Shown piece by piece: positions 10,265-33,903 of a DNA stretch of 64,000 bases. The translations under genes and the position numbers were made by a program. Within the stretch, counting starts at the first letter, position 1. The number at the start of each line of letters is the position of its first letter. Below the pieces are notes generated by a model. That model was not told the origin of the DNA. It did no database searches and saw only the letters and a list, made by a program, of their open reading frames with translations. The DNA comes from Leptolyngbya sp. FACHB-321 (lineage in GTDB: Bacteria > Cyanobacteriota > Cyanobacteriia > Leptolyngbyales > Leptolyngbyaceae). The DNA is taken from NCBI RefSeq assembly GCF_014695975.1, contig NZ_JACJPI010000090.1, positions 62,001 through 126,000 on the forward strand, read 5' to 3'.

Positions 10265-10368
10265 GAAACGTGAGTAAGGAGTAGAGAGAAGGAGCGGCAA
10301 GGCTAAGGATAAAGGCTAAATTAATCTAAAACTTTCATCCTCCATCCCTTCTCCTTCATCCCTCCCCC
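10265..10368. repeat. Purine-rich / pyrimidine-rich low-complexity element
   Basis: A purine-rich half (GTAAGGAGTAGAGAGAAGGAG, 10274 onward) is followed by a pyrimidine-rich half (CATCCTCCATCCCTTCTCC, 10336 onward) containing a CTCCTTC complement, so it can fold as an imperfect hairpin. It lies between two convergent genes and contains the stop codon of the glycosyltransferase gene. It is one of several such elements in this window. Confidence 0.5.
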
Positions 10369-11825
10369 TGATGAATCGTCTTCACCCATTTCAAACGTTT
10401 AGGGCGAATTGAAAGACGGATGGTTGTTACAGAGACCACGGGCAGCCAGTGGAACATATAGATTGTGCCAAAAACAGTATGGAACAGCAGCCGCATCGAA
10501 GAAAGAAGCACTGTGCCTAGTTCAGCACGTTTGGCACGCAACCTTCCACTTTGAGGGAGTGGCTCTTGCTGTAAGTGCCTTGACTGCGATCGAATCTGAC
10601 GCAAACCTGCCACCGTACCTAAAATAGACAACACCAGTGTCAAGGTTGTCAGCGGAGTCACCAACAGCGGACGATTGCGAAGTAACGACATCAAAAGATC
10701 TGGCACAATCGCGGTTGGCAGCAAATACTGAATCACCCAGAACATGAGTAGATCGATCGTTTTGCCCGTGCCCATCTTGTTCTGCACGATCGGTTGCCAG
10801 TAATCAAGATAGCGTTGGTAGCCGCCTTCAGCCCAACGGCTGCGTTGATGCCAGAGCGAGACTGCCTGCGTTACGCCCTCTTCTTCGACGGCTGGTAGCG
10901 CCATAAAGTCCACATCCCACTGGGCAAGATGCAAACGAAACGTGAGATCTAGATCATCCGTAATCGTTGCTTCGTTCCAGCCACCACAAAGTTCTAGCGC
11001 CTCACGACGGACAAACTGACCATTACCGCGCAGTTCACCAATGCCACCGATCGCAATTCGTTGCCGCTGATAGAACGAATCCAGCGCCATTTCTGCAACC
11101 TGACCATACGTCCAGCCATTCTCAAACCCGTTAGACACTGACTTGCGAACCTGAACAGCACCCAGTTCTCTGCGCTTAAAGAGTGGTAAAACTCGCCGCA
11201 GCATATCGTGTGACACCTGGGCATCGGCATCAAACACGGCAATAATCTCACCTTTTGTCAACGGCAAGACCTGATTCAGCGCACCCGACTTACCACCGCC
11301 AGCATTCGCTGGACGATAAAACACCCGTAGCTGCTGATACTGCTGCTCTAGCTGTTTTAGCAAGGCAGGAGTTTGGTCAGTGCTATTGTCGTCAATCACC
11401 CAAAGTTCGTAACAATGGGTCGGATAGTCCAGTGCACAGAGCGTCTTGACCAGTCTGGCAATCACTGCCGCTTCATTTTTTGCCGCTACGAGAATGGATA
11501 CAAGCGGCAAGACATCATCTGCCTCACTTAACAGGGGGGTTGGCGTCGCCAGCGGACGAGCCAGAAAGATCCGTGTCGCCTGGATAGCCATCAGGGTCGT
11601 TAAGCCAACAACAACCCAATAGCCCCAGGTAACAAGGTGCAGCGCGATTGTGCCGCTCCAAATAACAACCAGCGAAATTGCTGCTCTCCGCCGTCGGTTA
11701 TCACCCCGCTCAGGTTGACTTGATGCACTCTCCACTTCGGGGAGATCAGATAGATCGACAAACAACGAGTCAAGCGGTTCAAGCTCGCTGTAAGAATCGT
11801 TTTCGGGCCAGGAACTCTCCGGCAT
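10356..11825 (-). CDS. mgdA: Family 2 glycosyltransferase, probably beta-monoglucosyldiacylglycerol synthase
   Basis: The product has 489 residues. An acidic N-terminal tail (1-43) precedes two membrane helices (~48-88). The GT2 catalytic domain follows, with WVIDDNSTD (DD at 145-146), VFDADAQ (DxD at 199-201), TDDLD at 289-293 and QRSRW at 327-331. Two or more C-terminal membrane helices end the protein. This architecture and the N-terminus resemble the cyanobacterial enzyme that transfers glucose from UDP-glucose to diacylglycerol, the first step of galactolipid synthesis (assignment from memory, not from a search). A general cellulose-synthase-like GT2 is the alternative. Its start overlaps the upstream radical SAM frame by 47 bases, implying co-translation. 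Confidence 0.75.
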   Translation of the reverse strand: MPESSWPENDSYSELEPLDSLFVDLSDLPEVESASSQPERGDNRRRRAAISLVVIWSGTIALHLVTWGYWVVVGLTTLMAIQATRIFLARPLATPTPLLSEADDVLPLVSILVAAKNEAAVIARLVKTLCALDYPTHCYELWVIDDNSTDQTPALLKQLEQQYQQLRVFYRPANAGGGKSGALNQVLPLTKGEIIAVFDADAQVSHDMLRRVLPLFKRRELGAVQVRKSVSNGFENGWTYGQVAEMALDSFYQRQRIAIGGIGELRGNGQFVRREALELCGGWNEATITDDLDLTFRLHLAQWDVDFMALPAVEEEGVTQAVSLWHQRSRWAEGGYQRYLDYWQPIVQNKMGTGKTIDLLMFWVIQYLLPTAIVPDLLMSLLRNRPLLVTPLTTLTLVLSILGTVAGLRQIRSQSRHLQQEPLPQSGRLRAKRAELGTVLLSSMRLLFHTVFGTIYMFHWLPVVSVTTIRLSIRPKRLKWVKTIHQGEG

Positions 11826-12753
11826 AAGTTACTTGATTCAACCACCAATATTTATCTAAACCTTTGAAGAAGCTTGGAATGAGATAACACCAAACCGTGC
11901 AGCCTTCACACACGGATAGCTTACCTTGAGATTGGCGATAGTCTTCCACAACTTCGGACTGCTTGTACAGGTCATACAGTCGTCCTTCGATCGGCAAACC
12001 TGTTTGAGCAAAGTGATAACAGGGCAAAAGCAGTTCATCATTAGGCGAAATAGCAATGACCGCATCAACGGCTTTACAGCGGGGATTGCTGGTATCGTTG
12101 CCGCCTGCTTCAATAAACGCTAAGGCTGCTTTGTTATAGCCCACATTGCTGTAGCGCTTAGCAGCCACTTCGATCGCCGTTACCAGCTCCGGAGTCGGAT
12201 TTTTCTTTGAGTTGTAATTGCTGTGTGCCGTAAATGCCGGGTTGAGCCAGACTCGTGCTTCTAGCTGTTGCCCCAGTTCCGCCACTTCTCCAATACGTTC
12301 GTAGTTTTGGGCAGTCACCGTATGGTTTAAAACCGGATGTTCGCCGAGTGAATGAGCAAGCTGCACTGACTCAACCAACGTGTCAAAAATTTTCACGCCC
12401 CTCGATTGGTCATGCGTTTCAGCATCAGCACCATCTAGCGAGAAGTTCAGAAAATCGACCAACCCCTTCATTTCGTGTGCCCGCTTGGGGTAGAGGATGG
12501 TGTTAGTCGTCATGCTCGTCACAAAGCCTTGCCGCTTAGCTTCAGCAAAAATTTGTCCAACATCGGTTCGCAGTAGTGGTTCTCCACCTGTAAAGTCTAC
12601 ATACTTCACATTCAGCCGCCGCAGATCAGCTAAATTGCGGCGAATGGTGTCAAAATCTGCCTCTTTTTTCGGCTCTAACGCCCAAATGTCACAAAAGTGA
12701 CACCGTGCATTGCAACGGTAGGTTAGATAATAATTTGCAACCAGAGGTGCCAT
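11779..12753 (-). CDS. Radical SAM protein with C-terminal Cys cluster (SPASM-like)
   Basis: The product has 324 residues from the ATG at 12753. The longer open frame to 12810 begins at a non-ATG codon and adds a non-homologous lead. CNARCHFC at residues ~14-21 is the CxxxCxxC motif that binds the catalytic 4Fe-4S cluster. TGGEPLLR (the GGE motif) and LNFSLDGAD follow as in SAM-binding barrels. The C-terminus has spaced Cys residues (NPRCK, LLPCYHF, CEGCTVWC) that could hold an auxiliary cluster. The substrate is unknown; relatives modify lipids, hopanoids or peptides. The reading frame overlaps the start of the glycolipid synthase-like gene by 47 bases, which suggests a shared pathway (inference). 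Confidence 0.82.
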   Translation of the reverse strand: MAPLVANYYLTYRCNARCHFCDIWALEPKKEADFDTIRRNLADLRRLNVKYVDFTGGEPLLRTDVGQIFAEAKRQGFVTSMTTNTILYPKRAHEMKGLVDFLNFSLDGADAETHDQSRGVKIFDTLVESVQLAHSLGEHPVLNHTVTAQNYERIGEVAELGQQLEARVWLNPAFTAHSNYNSKKNPTPELVTAIEVAAKRYSNVGYNKAALAFIEAGGNDTSNPRCKAVDAVIAISPNDELLLPCYHFAQTGLPIEGRLYDLYKQSEVVEDYRQSQGKLSVCEGCTVWCYLIPSFFKGLDKYWWLNQVTYAGEFLARKRFLQRA

Positions 12754-13358
12754 AACTTGTTTAACGTTTAGTCTCCGCTGAGAACTACAGTAGTCTGCTG
12801 AGAACCACAATAGGTCGAACAGTTACAGAAAACAAGCGCCTTGCATACAACATTAGCACCATGCCTCCTACCTGTAGACCTTATTGTGGCAAGTGTGGTA
12901 TCCGATATCAGGCGCGAACCCAAACTCCTTCGCCTTCAGGCTGTCGAGGAACGAAGTCAATGTAGCAGACGGCACTGTTGCAAAAGGAACGGGATCTCAT
13001 TTTATGCAGATCGATTCTTGATTTTGGGCACACTACGGCAGGCAGAAAATCAGTGTGCCTGATCACGGCGAAAGAAACTGGCTTCATCTAGCCTGATGTC
13101 GGTCAACAGCTTATGCTTGCTACCTGTGCTTGCCGATGCGGATACGTGCTGCAAACAGTACCGTCGTTCAAACGACAGTCCAGAGAAATTGGGGCAACAC
13201 GCGTCGGCAGCGATCGCGGTTTGAGTTAAAATCACTGGCAGTCTGAGCATTCCTACTGCCAAAGCTCTTTCGCACAGCATCACAACGCCTTCTCGAAACG
13301 CGCTGAGTCTCCTACCCAACTGCATTTTCCACCTGACAGCACTCTAGGAAGATTGACT
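12754..13358. other. 605-base intergenic region with an inverted repeat
   Basis: No coding sequence is supported; short open frames on both strands show no recognisable family pattern. GGCACACT at 13027-13034 and AGTGTGCC at 13052-13059 form an 8-bp inverted repeat with a 17-base loop, without a T-run. The region holds divergent promoters for the radical SAM operon and the 125-residue gene. AGGAAG just before 13359 is a ribosome-binding site. Confidence 0.45.
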
Positions 13359-13736
13359 ATGTCTATCGACAAACTTCAACCCGCCCCCAACCAGCACGTA
13401 GGCGTTTATGCACCCTACTATCCGCAGGCAGCAAAGCGATCACACCTGCCCCTGGCAATCAGCCTCTACCAAAAAGGTTCGCTAGAAGGTCAGCGCAAAA
13501 TTGAGGGCGGTGAGAGCATCCCCTTCATTGCCACCTGGAATGTGTCGACCTTACCAGCTGACCTGACCCGCTGTCGCATTCAGTTTGACGGCAACTCAGA
13601 ACTCAGCTATGAACTCATGATGGCGAACTTTGAGTTCATTGATTTCCTCATCGACGTGATCCTAAATTTCAAGCGCGTTCACCTTGCAGACTTTTCGCAA
13701 TCGTTTTACCGCAAGTTAATGCGCTATGACGACTAG
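13359..13736 (+). CDS. Conserved hypothetical protein, upstream of Get3d group
   Basis: The product has 125 residues from the ATG at 13359, preceded by AGGAAG at good spacing; a TTG two codons earlier is possible. It has no signal peptide and no membrane helix. It looks like a small compact protein, with FIATWNVSTLPADLTRCRIQF and ELMMANFEFIDFLIDVILN as its most hydrophobic stretches. I do not recognise a family with known function. It is the first of three same-strand genes (this gene, DUF2358, Get3d), with a repeat-rich spacer after it. Confidence 0.7.
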   Translation: MSIDKLQPAPNQHVGVYAPYYPQAAKRSHLPLAISLYQKGSLEGQRKIEGGESIPFIATWNVSTLPADLTRCRIQFDGNSELSYELMMANFEFIDFLIDVILNFKRVHLADFSQSFYRKLMRYDD

Positions 13737-13740
13737 AGAG

Positions 13741-13886
13741 CGCTGGGTGAGGAGTGAGAGGAGAGGAATCAGGAGTCAGGACTCAAGGGAGTTTTTAGTT
13801 GTTAGTTATTAGAAGGAGTCAGGAACGGCTCATGAACTAACAACTAACAACTGGTTCAACTCAAAACTCAAAACCCTCTTCCCCCC
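13741..13886. repeat. Low-complexity repeat with TTAGTTGTTAG-type inverted repeat
   Basis: The sequence starts with purine-rich words (GTGAGGAGTGAGAGGAGAGG), then GTTGTTAGTTATTAG (13798-13812), which pairs with CTAACAACTAACAAC (13837-13851) at 14 of 15 positions. A pyrimidine-rich run leads to the start of the DUF2358 gene. Heptad-like GTTAGTT repeats of this kind are common between cyanobacterial genes. It could form a stable hairpin in the mRNA. Confidence 0.65.
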
Positions 13887-13888
13887 TC

Positions 13889-14275
13889 ATGGACATTCTC
13901 CAAATCCTTAAAGACGACTACCAGCGGTTTCCGGTTGACCAGACTTACAGCATCTACGCTAAGGATGTGTATTTCAAAGACCCGACAAGTGAGTTTCGGG
14001 GGGTCGATCGCTACCAACGCACGATCGCGTTTATCCAAGCCTGGTTTCGCCACTGCAAAATGGATTTGCATAAGATGCAACAAACAGGCAACATTATCCG
14101 CACTGACTGGACGTTGAGCTGGAATACACCGCTGCCCTGGCGTCCTCGCATCACTATTCCTGGCTGGAGCGAACTCACGCTCAATGCGGATGGCTTGATT
14201 GTCTCCCACCTCGACTACTGGCATTGTTCACGTTTGGATGTGTTGAAGCAGCACTTTCTGCCGAAAACTCGATAA
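13889..14275 (+). CDS. DUF2358 family protein (NTF2-like)
   Basis: The product has 128 residues. ILKDDYQRFPVDQTYSIYAKDVYFKDP at the N-terminus and GVDRYQRTIAFIQAWF are the DUF2358 pattern, found in cyanobacteria and chloroplast proteins of plants. The C-terminal LNADGLIVSHLDYWHCSRLDVLKQHF is typical of the NTF2-like cone fold. No catalytic function is known. It lies 41 bases upstream of the Get3d gene on the same strand, so the two are probably co-transcribed. Both are families retained in oxygenic phototrophs, which makes a functional link worth testing (inference). Confidence 0.85.
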   Translation: MDILQILKDDYQRFPVDQTYSIYAKDVYFKDPTSEFRGVDRYQRTIAFIQAWFRHCKMDLHKMQQTGNIIRTDWTLSWNTPLPWRPRITIPGWSELTLNADGLIVSHLDYWHCSRLDVLKQHFLPKTR

Positions 14276-14316
14276 AGTAAAAGAATGTAAACAATTCTCA
14301 GTAGGGTTCGATCGCC

Positions 14317-15507
14317 ATGCGCGTAATTTTGATGACGGGCAAAGGGGGCGTAGGCAAAACCTCTGTTGCTGCTGCCACTGGTTTGCGTTGCGCCGAACTT
14401 GGCTATCGCACCCTGGTTCTCAGTACCGATCCAGCACACTCTCTGGCAGACAGCTTTGATGTGGAACTGGGTCATGACCCCAAACTCGTGCGTCCTAACC
14501 TGTGGGGAGCCGAACTTGATGCGCTCAAGGAACTGGAAGGCAATTGGGGTGCCGTAAAGCGCTACATTACTCAGGTTTTGCAGGCACGGGGCATGGACGG
14601 GGTGCAGGCAGAAGAACTCGCAATCCTTCCTGGCATGGATGAAATTTTTGGCTTGGTGCGGATGAAGCGCCACTACGACGAGGGCGAGTACGATGTGCTG
14701 ATCATTGACTCTGCACCCACGGGAACCGCACTACGTCTGTTGAGCTTGCCAGAAGTTGGCGGTTGGTATATGCGGAAATTCTACAAGCCCTTTCAGGGAA
14801 TTTCTGTCGCCTTACGTCCGCTGGTAGAGCCACTGTTTCGACCGATCGCGGGCTTTTCTCTCCCCGATAAAGAGGTGATGGATGCGCCCTTCGAGTTCTA
14901 CGAGCAAATCGAAGCGCTGGAGAAAGTGCTGACTGATGCGACTAAAACCTCGGTGCGTCTGGTCATGAACCCTGAAAAAATGGTGATCAAAGAATCACTC
15001 CGTGCCCACGCTTACCTGAGCCTGTATAACGTGGCAACGGATATGGTGGTGGCAAACCGTATCCTACCCGATTCTGTCTCTGACCCCTTCTTCCAGCGCT
15101 GGAAGGAACAACAGCAGCAGTATCGTCAGGAAATCCACGAAAACTTCTCACCGCTACCGATTAAAGAAGTGCCGCTGTATTCGGAAGAGATGTGTGGGCT
15201 AGCAGCGCTCGATCGGCTCAAAGATACCCTCTACCCCAACAATGAAGATCCGGCGCAGGTTTACTACAAAGAAACCACGCTGCGAGTGGTGCAAGACAAA
15301 CAGCAGTACAGTCTGGAAGTGTATCTACCGGGCATTGAGAAGCACCAGATTGAACTGAGTAAATCTGGCGATGAGCTAAATATTCGCATTGGCAATCATC
15401 GTCGTAATCTGGTGCTGCCACAGTCGTTAGCTGCCCTGGAACCTGCGGGGGCAAAGATGGAAGATGATTACCTTAAAATCCGCTTTGCGAGTGTAGCCAA
15501 AGTTTAG
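14317..15507 (+). CDS. get3d: Get3d: ArsA/Get3-type ATPase with C-terminal alpha-crystallin-like domain
   Basis: The product has 396 residues. The deviant Walker [10 protein letters not shown] (residues ~8-16) is the signature of the ArsA/Get3 (SIMIBI) ATPases. [12 protein letters not shown] is switch I, and [21 protein letters not shown] is the Walker B/switch II and A-loop region. The last ~90 residues (from ~307) form a small heat-shock-protein/alpha-crystallin-like beta domain ([20 protein letters not shown]). This fusion defines Get3d, a paralogue kept in cyanobacteria and chloroplasts and distinct from tail-anchor-targeting Get3. The client protein is unknown. The Cys pair used for zinc binding in eukaryotic Get3 is not visible. 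Confidence 0.88.
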
Positions 15508-33732: not shown

Positions 33733-33806
33733 ATAGCAGCAAAACTTCACTGACTTTTTCGCTACAAACCAACCCTTGTTCGTTCAGAGTGATAGAATTG
33801 CAGCCA

Positions 33807-33883
33807 AGCTAGGGGTGCCTGTGAATGCAGGCTGAGATAGTCCCTTAGAACCTGAGACTGGGTAATACCAGCGGAGGGAAGCT
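33807..33883 (+). promoter_or_regulatory. TPP riboswitch (THI element) of thiC
   Basis: All conserved parts are readable in order: P1 AGCT at 33807-33810 pairing with AGCT at 33880-33883; GGGGTGCC; GGCTGAGATA; CCCTTAGAACCTGA; CTGGGTAATACCAG; and GGAGGGAAGCT. It lies 20 bases before the thiC ATG and just before the GAGGAA ribosome-binding site at 33892-33897. With so little space, control of translation initiation by P1 and the sequence after it is more likely than a separate terminator (inference). Confidence 0.95.
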
Positions 33884-33903
33884 GTTTATCTGAGGAATCG
33901 AAT

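Follow-up and report, generated by a model that had tools for sequence, protein, structure and literature searches.

A Sll0086-type Get3 paralogue of Leptolyngbya sp. FACHB-321 with DUF2358 as its most frequent neighbour and a predicted RpaB element before its start codon

Which proteins work together with Get3 in cyanobacteria is the question raised by a locus of Leptolyngbya sp. FACHB-321, in which the gene of a Get3/ArsA-family ATPase (positions 14317..15507, forward strand) follows that of a DUF2358 protein (13889..14275, forward strand). The locus lies in a stretch of 64,000 nucleotides, referred to here as the window, from a genome with a total of 6.7 Mb. A sequence-only reading of this DNA had proposed that Get3d, DUF2358 and a small unknown gene upstream form a photosynthesis-linked chaperone unit, with the neighbours as candidate partners of Get3d. 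The three forward-strand open reading frames (ORFs) were found where this reading had placed them, and 41 bases separate DUF2358 from the Get3 ORF. The comparison of related genomes presented here shows that DUF2358 is the most frequent neighbour of this Get3, that the pair is conserved in part of the phylum, and that a conserved element resembling HLR1, the binding site of RpaB, precedes Get3.

The ATPase consists of 396 amino acids and matches the models PF02374 (ArsA_ATPase, 366 bits) and TIGR00345 (373 bits). Its P-loop GKGGVGKT (residues 8-15, 14338..14361) has its lysines intact. A C-terminal alpha-crystallin (HSP20-like) domain at residues 329-390 (15301..15486) is matched by PF17886 (ArsA_HSP20) with 81.5 bits. 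The protein contains two cysteines in total and no CXXC zinc motif. With a Get3/ArsA core, a C-terminal PF17886 domain and no CXXC, it belongs to Get3d in the broad sense, and the same combination is found in the Get3d proteins of the cyanobacterium Nostoc (All4481/NosGet3d, PDB 3igf and 8egk) and of Arabidopsis (8elf) described in PMC10248533. The earlier call of Get3d is thus right for an alpha-crystallin-domain Get3, but not in the sense of an orthologue of NosGet3d/All4481. Against the NosGet3d model NF050088 the window protein scores 198 bits, which is below the equivalog cut-off of 325, and the NosGet3d orthologue sits elsewhere in the same genome (G000:C54:179553-180647; NF050088 608 bits). 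In a PDB search with the window protein, the archaeal Get3 3zq6 (1e-50) ranks above 3igf (2e-32). Its identity as a Get3 can be stated with high confidence, and it is assigned as the second, Sll0086-type paralogue. This label follows the description in PMC10248533 of Sll0086 from Synechocystis, where Sll0086, like the window protein here, is the second of two paralogues and the better preserved one.

The two paralogues differ markedly in conservation. In the same 21 genomes, the mean pairwise identity is 84% for the Sll0086-type and 53% for NosGet3d. The motifs GKGGVGK and DPAHSL, the latter of which we take to be the switch I stretch of Get3, are both invariant across 67 aligned homologues including the window protein. 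In contrast, the P-loop of NosGet3d is altered in many of the 21 genomes. At the NosGet3d loci (L104 and L238-L257) its second lysine is often an arginine, and some genomes are altered more widely. The Get3d of PMC10248533 is characterised by a degenerate switch I and a missing A-loop, and the degenerate switch I of NosGet3d/AtGet3d is not shared by the window protein, in which DPAHSL is intact. The window Get3 is therefore the other paralogue, with P-loop lysines and switch I kept, a far higher conservation, and an HLR1-like element before its gene.

The distribution of the Sll0086-type Get3 was followed in two samples. The first, covering the phylum, comprises 146 genomes, 64 of which are listed as members of the class Cyanobacteriia, and is rich in few families; a second, more even sample of 59 class genomes was taken to offset this. 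Get3 of this type is present in 59 of the 64 listed class members, which constitute the 59-genome sample below, and in 55 of the 59 genomes of the even sample. All five misses in the former and all four in the latter belong to family f19, whose genomes are small (1.7-2.6 Mb), a size that points to marine picocyanobacteria. Merged, both samples give 101 distinct genomes (13 common to both) from 39 families. Compared with the remaining Cyanobacteriia matches of both samples, the window Get3 shows 73-90% identity, the most divergent sequences being those of families f34, f42 and f49 (73-74%). In the alignment from the 59-genome sample, 206 of 396 positions are invariant and the identity between families averages 85%. 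Outside the class, 8 genomes of the phylum sample carry a Get3 homologue at 38-43% identity; judging from their place in the phylum, these hosts are presumably non-photosynthetic.

All ORFs around Get3, mostly within 6 kb per side (less at contig ends), were clustered with no family preselected. The clustering took in 67 loci, and 59 were counted, leaving out the 8 distant homologues; frames overlapping Get3 or DUF2358 were set aside before the next-best neighbours were named. DUF2358 is the most frequent neighbour. It is found in 38 of the 59 genomes, always upstream and on the same strand, at a median distance of 44 bases, followed by a protein here called X (13 genomes) and a protein read by eye as DnaN (10). 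In the even class sample the adjacency occurs in 16 of 55 genomes. Counted over both samples, 45 of 101 genomes, from 17 of 39 families, have DUF2358 immediately before Get3, a conserved one-strand adjacency in part of the phylum. A further set, the best 80 named relatives of the window Get3, is biased toward close kin; here DUF2358 is found within 2 kb in 48 of 77 loci, three having been dropped owing to a short upstream flank, and at 2.0-2.9 kb in four more. The gene-neighbourhood survey suggested by the sequence-only reading thus revealed a conserved adjacency, contrary to the gene-order outcome named there as refuting. Of the proposed unit, the DUF2358-Get3 pair stands, as an adjacency above chance, with DUF2358 as the commonest neighbour, albeit in part of the phylum only, while the third gene, EbsA, drops out as set out below. 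DUF2358 and Get3 are thus paired widely though not universally, the pair having either arisen repeatedly or been lost many times.

Protein X has about 190 residues, occurs in 27 of the 146 genomes, and has no Pfam or NCBIfam match above cut-off. In 16 of these 27 genomes the coordinates place X immediately before DUF2358, at a distance of 11-862 bases. Three of these 16 pairs are located away from Get3 (G027, G068 and G101), and at one locus (L185) X immediately precedes Get3, DUF2358 being missing from the 6 kb upstream. The alignment of X (A2) contains all 42 references (L058:4865-5428 and 41 relatives), and the structural model reaches a pLDDT of 81.4 and a pTM of 0.62. The first ~120 residues share the fold of CesT/SycE-type chaperones of type III secretion, with 22 Foldseek matches at E values from 5.7e-5 to 9.1e-4, and the model also resembles the structure of the cyanobacterial protein Tll0839 (2plg). 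X differs from the type III secretion chaperones in its extra C-terminal helices and in belonging to no named family, and no secretion system is implied by the resemblance. On the strength of gene order, X is a candidate for a third partner beside Get3 and DUF2358 in part of the phylum. At a separate locus (L229, G008:C88:125055-136809), a distance of about 4 kb separates X from the gene of NosGet3d.

Conservation is striking in the sequence that separates DUF2358 from Get3, and it is largely retained where DUF2358 is not adjacent. Comparison of the leaders, restricted to loci with at most 4 mismatches within 60 nt and with near-identical loci merged, gives the pattern GATAA.GTAAAtAAATGTAAA.AATTCTCAGgcAGG. 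This pattern includes the reverse complement of HLR1, the RpaB site, which is given in excerpts of PMC13421787 and PMC11633204 as the 18-bp sequence KTTACAWW-N2-KTTACAWW. In the window, the HLR1-like element occupies positions 14274..14291 on the reverse strand with one mismatch, overlaps the DUF2358 stop codon, and ends 25 nt before the Get3 ATG. Scanning the 90 nt before the Get3 ATG with the consensus and at most 2 mismatches, reverse-oriented sites were detected in 32 of 59 genomes (8 perfect), at 69 of the 80 relatives' loci (32 perfect) and in 18 of 41 further genomes, including three of family f34 with 0-1 mismatches. In either orientation the counts are 41/59, 69/80 and 19/41, covering 23 of 39 families. 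Among the 101 loci with a reverse-oriented site at this threshold, 86 have it ending 25-29 nt before the ATG.

The controls, scanned in either orientation, gave matches before 9 of 476 other ORFs (492 less 16 that proved to be Get3 under an alternative start) and in 0.9% of letter shuffles. At the same threshold, no site was present before NosGet3d (0/21, reverse orientation) or the distant Get3 homologues (0/8), and none in either orientation before DUF2358 (0/58) or X (0/36). The last two counts derive from reference lists from which weak or short matches had been dropped and in which near-identical ones had been merged. An extended element pattern proved too strict, being found in 3 of 59 genomes, with all three matches just before Get3. 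The 6.7-Mb genome contains only two perfect HLR1 consensus matches, neither of them at Get3, a result that speaks neither for nor against the motif. The conserved element before Get3 is very likely real, and its sequence makes it a probable RpaB site. The photosynthesis link proposed earlier thus gains support from a predicted high-light element. An RNA element in the leader was also considered and discarded; at gathering score, Rfam yields a single match in the window, a thiamine pyrophosphate (TPP) riboswitch far from Get3 (RF00059, 66 bits, 33801-33896).

The Get3 element resembles the promoters of the RpaB regulon, as far as these are presented in excerpts of PMC13421787 and PMC11633204, in having an 18-bp element near a predicted start site, and differs in that it frequently departs from the consensus by one or two letters; as such it represents an RpaB site predicted from sequence. 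According to an excerpt of PMC13421787, HLR1 about 45-66 nt before the start site is associated with activation and HLR1 overlapping the start site with repression. At the loci with the usual placement of the element, activation would require a start site inside the Get3 gene, and repression in low light with release in high light is therefore predicted for them. By eye, many loci without adjacent DUF2358 show a -10-like hexamer (GATAAT, GACAAT) upstream of the site, which agrees with the repression-type placement. Get3 appears to have a separate promoter over the DUF2358 stop codon, so that the pair need not form a simple operon.

Taken together, these observations are consistent with the following model. 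The Sll0086-type Get3, with its catalytic motifs kept, would use ATP to act as a chaperone or targeting factor, its clients being hydrophobic membrane proteins, probably with a tail anchor or a single helix, as suggested by its family. Both AtGet3d and NosGet3d capture a tail-anchored protein on co-expression (PMC10248533), and by analogy the window Get3 may likewise act as a carrier of hydrophobic helices. The promoter of Get3 itself would overlap the end of the gene before it. RpaB, bound to the HLR1-like site, would repress Get3 in low light and free it under high light, the condition in which thylakoid proteins have to be rebuilt; the motif and its position are observed and binding is presumed. 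DUF2358, as a small NTF2-like protein, is probably an accessory protein of the same process, and the CesT-like X may join Get3 and DUF2358 in part of the phylum, genetic linkage being the observation in both cases. The probability of this whole chain, with Get3 as carrier, RpaB in control and DUF2358 as accessory, is estimated at roughly 0.5. For a functional tie between DUF2358 and Get3, the balance is slightly favourable.

Several observations weigh against this model. In 56 of 101 genomes DUF2358 and Get3 are not adjacent, some pairs perhaps being hidden by contig ends, and the most divergent lineages (f34, f42 and f49) have no DUF2358 beside Get3. Mapping the adjacency onto a Get3 tree of weak resolution takes 12 changes, compared with a mean of 17.3 for shuffled labels. 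Even with 2 mismatches and both orientations allowed, 18 of 59 and 22 of 41 genomes lack an HLR1-like site, as do 16 of 39 families, including f42, f49, f47, f43, f38, f18, f17, f10 and f4 (mostly with at least 4 mismatches). The element is also not uniform. Nine of the sites in the 59 genomes occur solely in the opposite orientation, with distances that also differ, and the matches in f11 (two genomes), f13 and f9 are of this kind. The window site itself has one mismatch, and the two matches with at most 2 mismatches that the 64 kb contain are nothing unusual (24 of 100 shuffles); this site alone would not convince. X was not found in the window genome, and the invariant aspartates of DUF2358 described below would also fit an unrelated enzyme. 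Forward-oriented HLR1-like matches replace the usual reverse ones before Get3 at L069, L073, L086-L088 and L092 (families f11 and f13), one of them perfect.

A further objection is that the promoter of Get3 appears to overlap the end of DUF2358, so that the adjacency could persist for this reason. The two proteins would then not cooperate, and the pair would be kept for regulatory rather than functional reasons, as breaking it would tend to damage Get3 expression. In line with this explanation, the element overlaps the DUF2358 stop codon in the window, and neither DUF2358 nor X has such a site of its own at 2 mismatches. It is also favoured by remnants. At 71 cyanobacterial loci without DUF2358 within 200 nt (8 distant loci left out), an in-frame piece resembling the DUF2358 C-terminus still precedes Get3 in 22 cases, compared with 1.0% of letter shuffles; the DNA has been kept and the gene is gone. 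Such a remnant indicates that the pair was once adjacent there and was later broken, with the promoter DNA kept. The remnants cut both ways, pointing to former adjacency and at the same time providing a non-functional reason for the pair to persist. However, a short remnant suffices, so the promoter alone does not demand a complete DUF2358 gene, and the element persists at many loci that have no DUF2358 in the vicinity. In addition, X and DUF2358 occur together away from Get3 in the three genomes mentioned above, and X alone stands before Get3 at L185. This purely regulatory explanation is considered possible but rather unlikely. At five loci (L060, L156, L168, L183 and L187), a full DUF2358 gene is located 1.4-2.7 kb upstream and a second in-frame C-terminal copy at the Get3 promoter, a pattern that would fit an insertion splitting DUF2358 and duplicating part of its end.

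The nature of DUF2358 gives rise to another explanation, in which it is a small-molecule enzyme of the ketosteroid isomerase (KSI) or epoxide hydrolase type, acting for instance on a lipid or pigment and loosely tied to Get3. The window protein (128 aa, type A) matches PF10184 with 126 bits (cut-off 24.3) and SnoaL_2 with 35.6 bits and has an NTF2-like fold. Its AlphaFold2 model, built from an alignment (A1) of 70 sequences (69 of 80 references and the window protein), has a pLDDT of 93.9. KSI-like, NTF2-like and limonene epoxide hydrolase (LEH) structures are the best Foldseek matches (best E value 4.7e-8), and 14 positions are invariant in the 70 sequences, including Asp31 and Asp109; the KSI-like and LEH structures and the two aspartates speak for an enzyme. 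The NTF2-like fold covers many enzymes, but is also used by non-enzymatic binding proteins, and the identity of DUF2358 to the listed fold matches is only 20% or less. An enzymatic role with a loose tie to Get3 is likewise considered possible but rather unlikely. Judging the alignment by eye, two types of DUF2358 exist, and only type A is found beside Get3; type B was not found adjoining Get3 in the loci fetched. The type B paralogue, recognisable by FE.DISYDIY and FWTLRFH, is encoded at L105, L198-L210 and others. The DUF2358 domain is shared with plant and algal proteins (PMC9105198, PMC8448359). In the available parts of these sources, At1g65230 and LOC_Os01g68450 are tied to photosynthesis or light-energy use under stress (PMC9105198), and CPL14, a DUF2358 protein tied to photosynthesis, is included in a table (PMC8448359). 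The plant proteins are described with a transmembrane domain, and the likeness is one at the level of the DUF2358 domain.

The third gene of the locus (13359..13736, forward strand), read earlier as a small unknown gene, encodes the known type IV pilus biogenesis protein EbsA (NF045587 186 bits, cut-off 33) and apparently stands outside the unit. In Synechococcus elongatus, EbsA forms a complex with PilB and Hfq and is required for pili, as stated in an excerpt of PMC8092324. A joint unit of EbsA, DUF2358 and Get3, for example linking Get3 to pilin handling, could be argued from the common strand and from four of the 80 named relatives in which EbsA is also upstream of Get3 (about 0.5 kb in L119, L120 and L127, 2.4 kb in L118). 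The Get3 proteins of these four are 96-97% identical to that of the window. Among the 59 genomes, though, EbsA is near Get3 in the window genome alone (within the surveyed stretch of up to 6 kb per side, less at some contig ends), and nearly all carry EbsA elsewhere; in G116 it is about 12 kb from Get3 on the same contig. Gene order thus speaks strongly against EbsA as part of the unit, which makes the joint unit very improbable, and the protein is very probably a bystander and accidental neighbour of Get3.

An arsenite-pump ATPase ArsA, as the Pfam name ArsA_ATPase might imply, is rejected on the scores of the ArsA models, which are far under cut-off (NF041417 145 of 800 bits, TIGR04291 107 of 650). 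The single nucleotide-binding domain with its alpha-crystallin domain also speaks against it, and none of the neighbouring genes that were scanned matched a family of arsenic genes, leaving it with hardly any probability.

Two further observations concern other parts of the window. On the reverse strand at 10356-12810, opposite to that of EbsA, a radical SAM (S-adenosylmethionine) protein adjoins a PgaC/cellulose-synthase-like glycosyltransferase. A reverse-strand ORF of 216 amino acids at 16785-17432 matches neither a Pfam nor an NCBIfam family at the thresholds applied.

The Get3 family itself is already known. For the linkage of Get3 to DUF2358 and X and for its HLR1-like element, no record was found in a search of open-licence PMC main texts, most of them covered at the level of listings, and the strings "neighbo" and "DUF" occur 0 times in the main text of PMC10248533. 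The cyanobacterial biochemistry of that 2023 paper used the less conserved paralogue, and the present results point to the better-conserved one for study. Little is known of the partners and clients that Get3 proteins have in bacteria and chloroplasts, and DUF2358 and X are now two named candidate partners. If control by RpaB is true, Get3 should rise in high light through RpaB. As a speculative extension with a small chance of being correct, cyanobacteria might possess a light-switched GET-like pathway, in which the alpha-crystallin Get3, with its complete catalytic site and freed from repression by RpaB in high light, takes single-helix and tail-anchored thylakoid proteins, such as high-light-inducible proteins and small photosystem subunits. 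The hand-over would be assisted by DUF2358 as a chaperone and, in some lineages, also by X. According to PMC10248533, a Get3d targeting route would need new partners; if this pathway exists, DUF2358 and X would be those partners.

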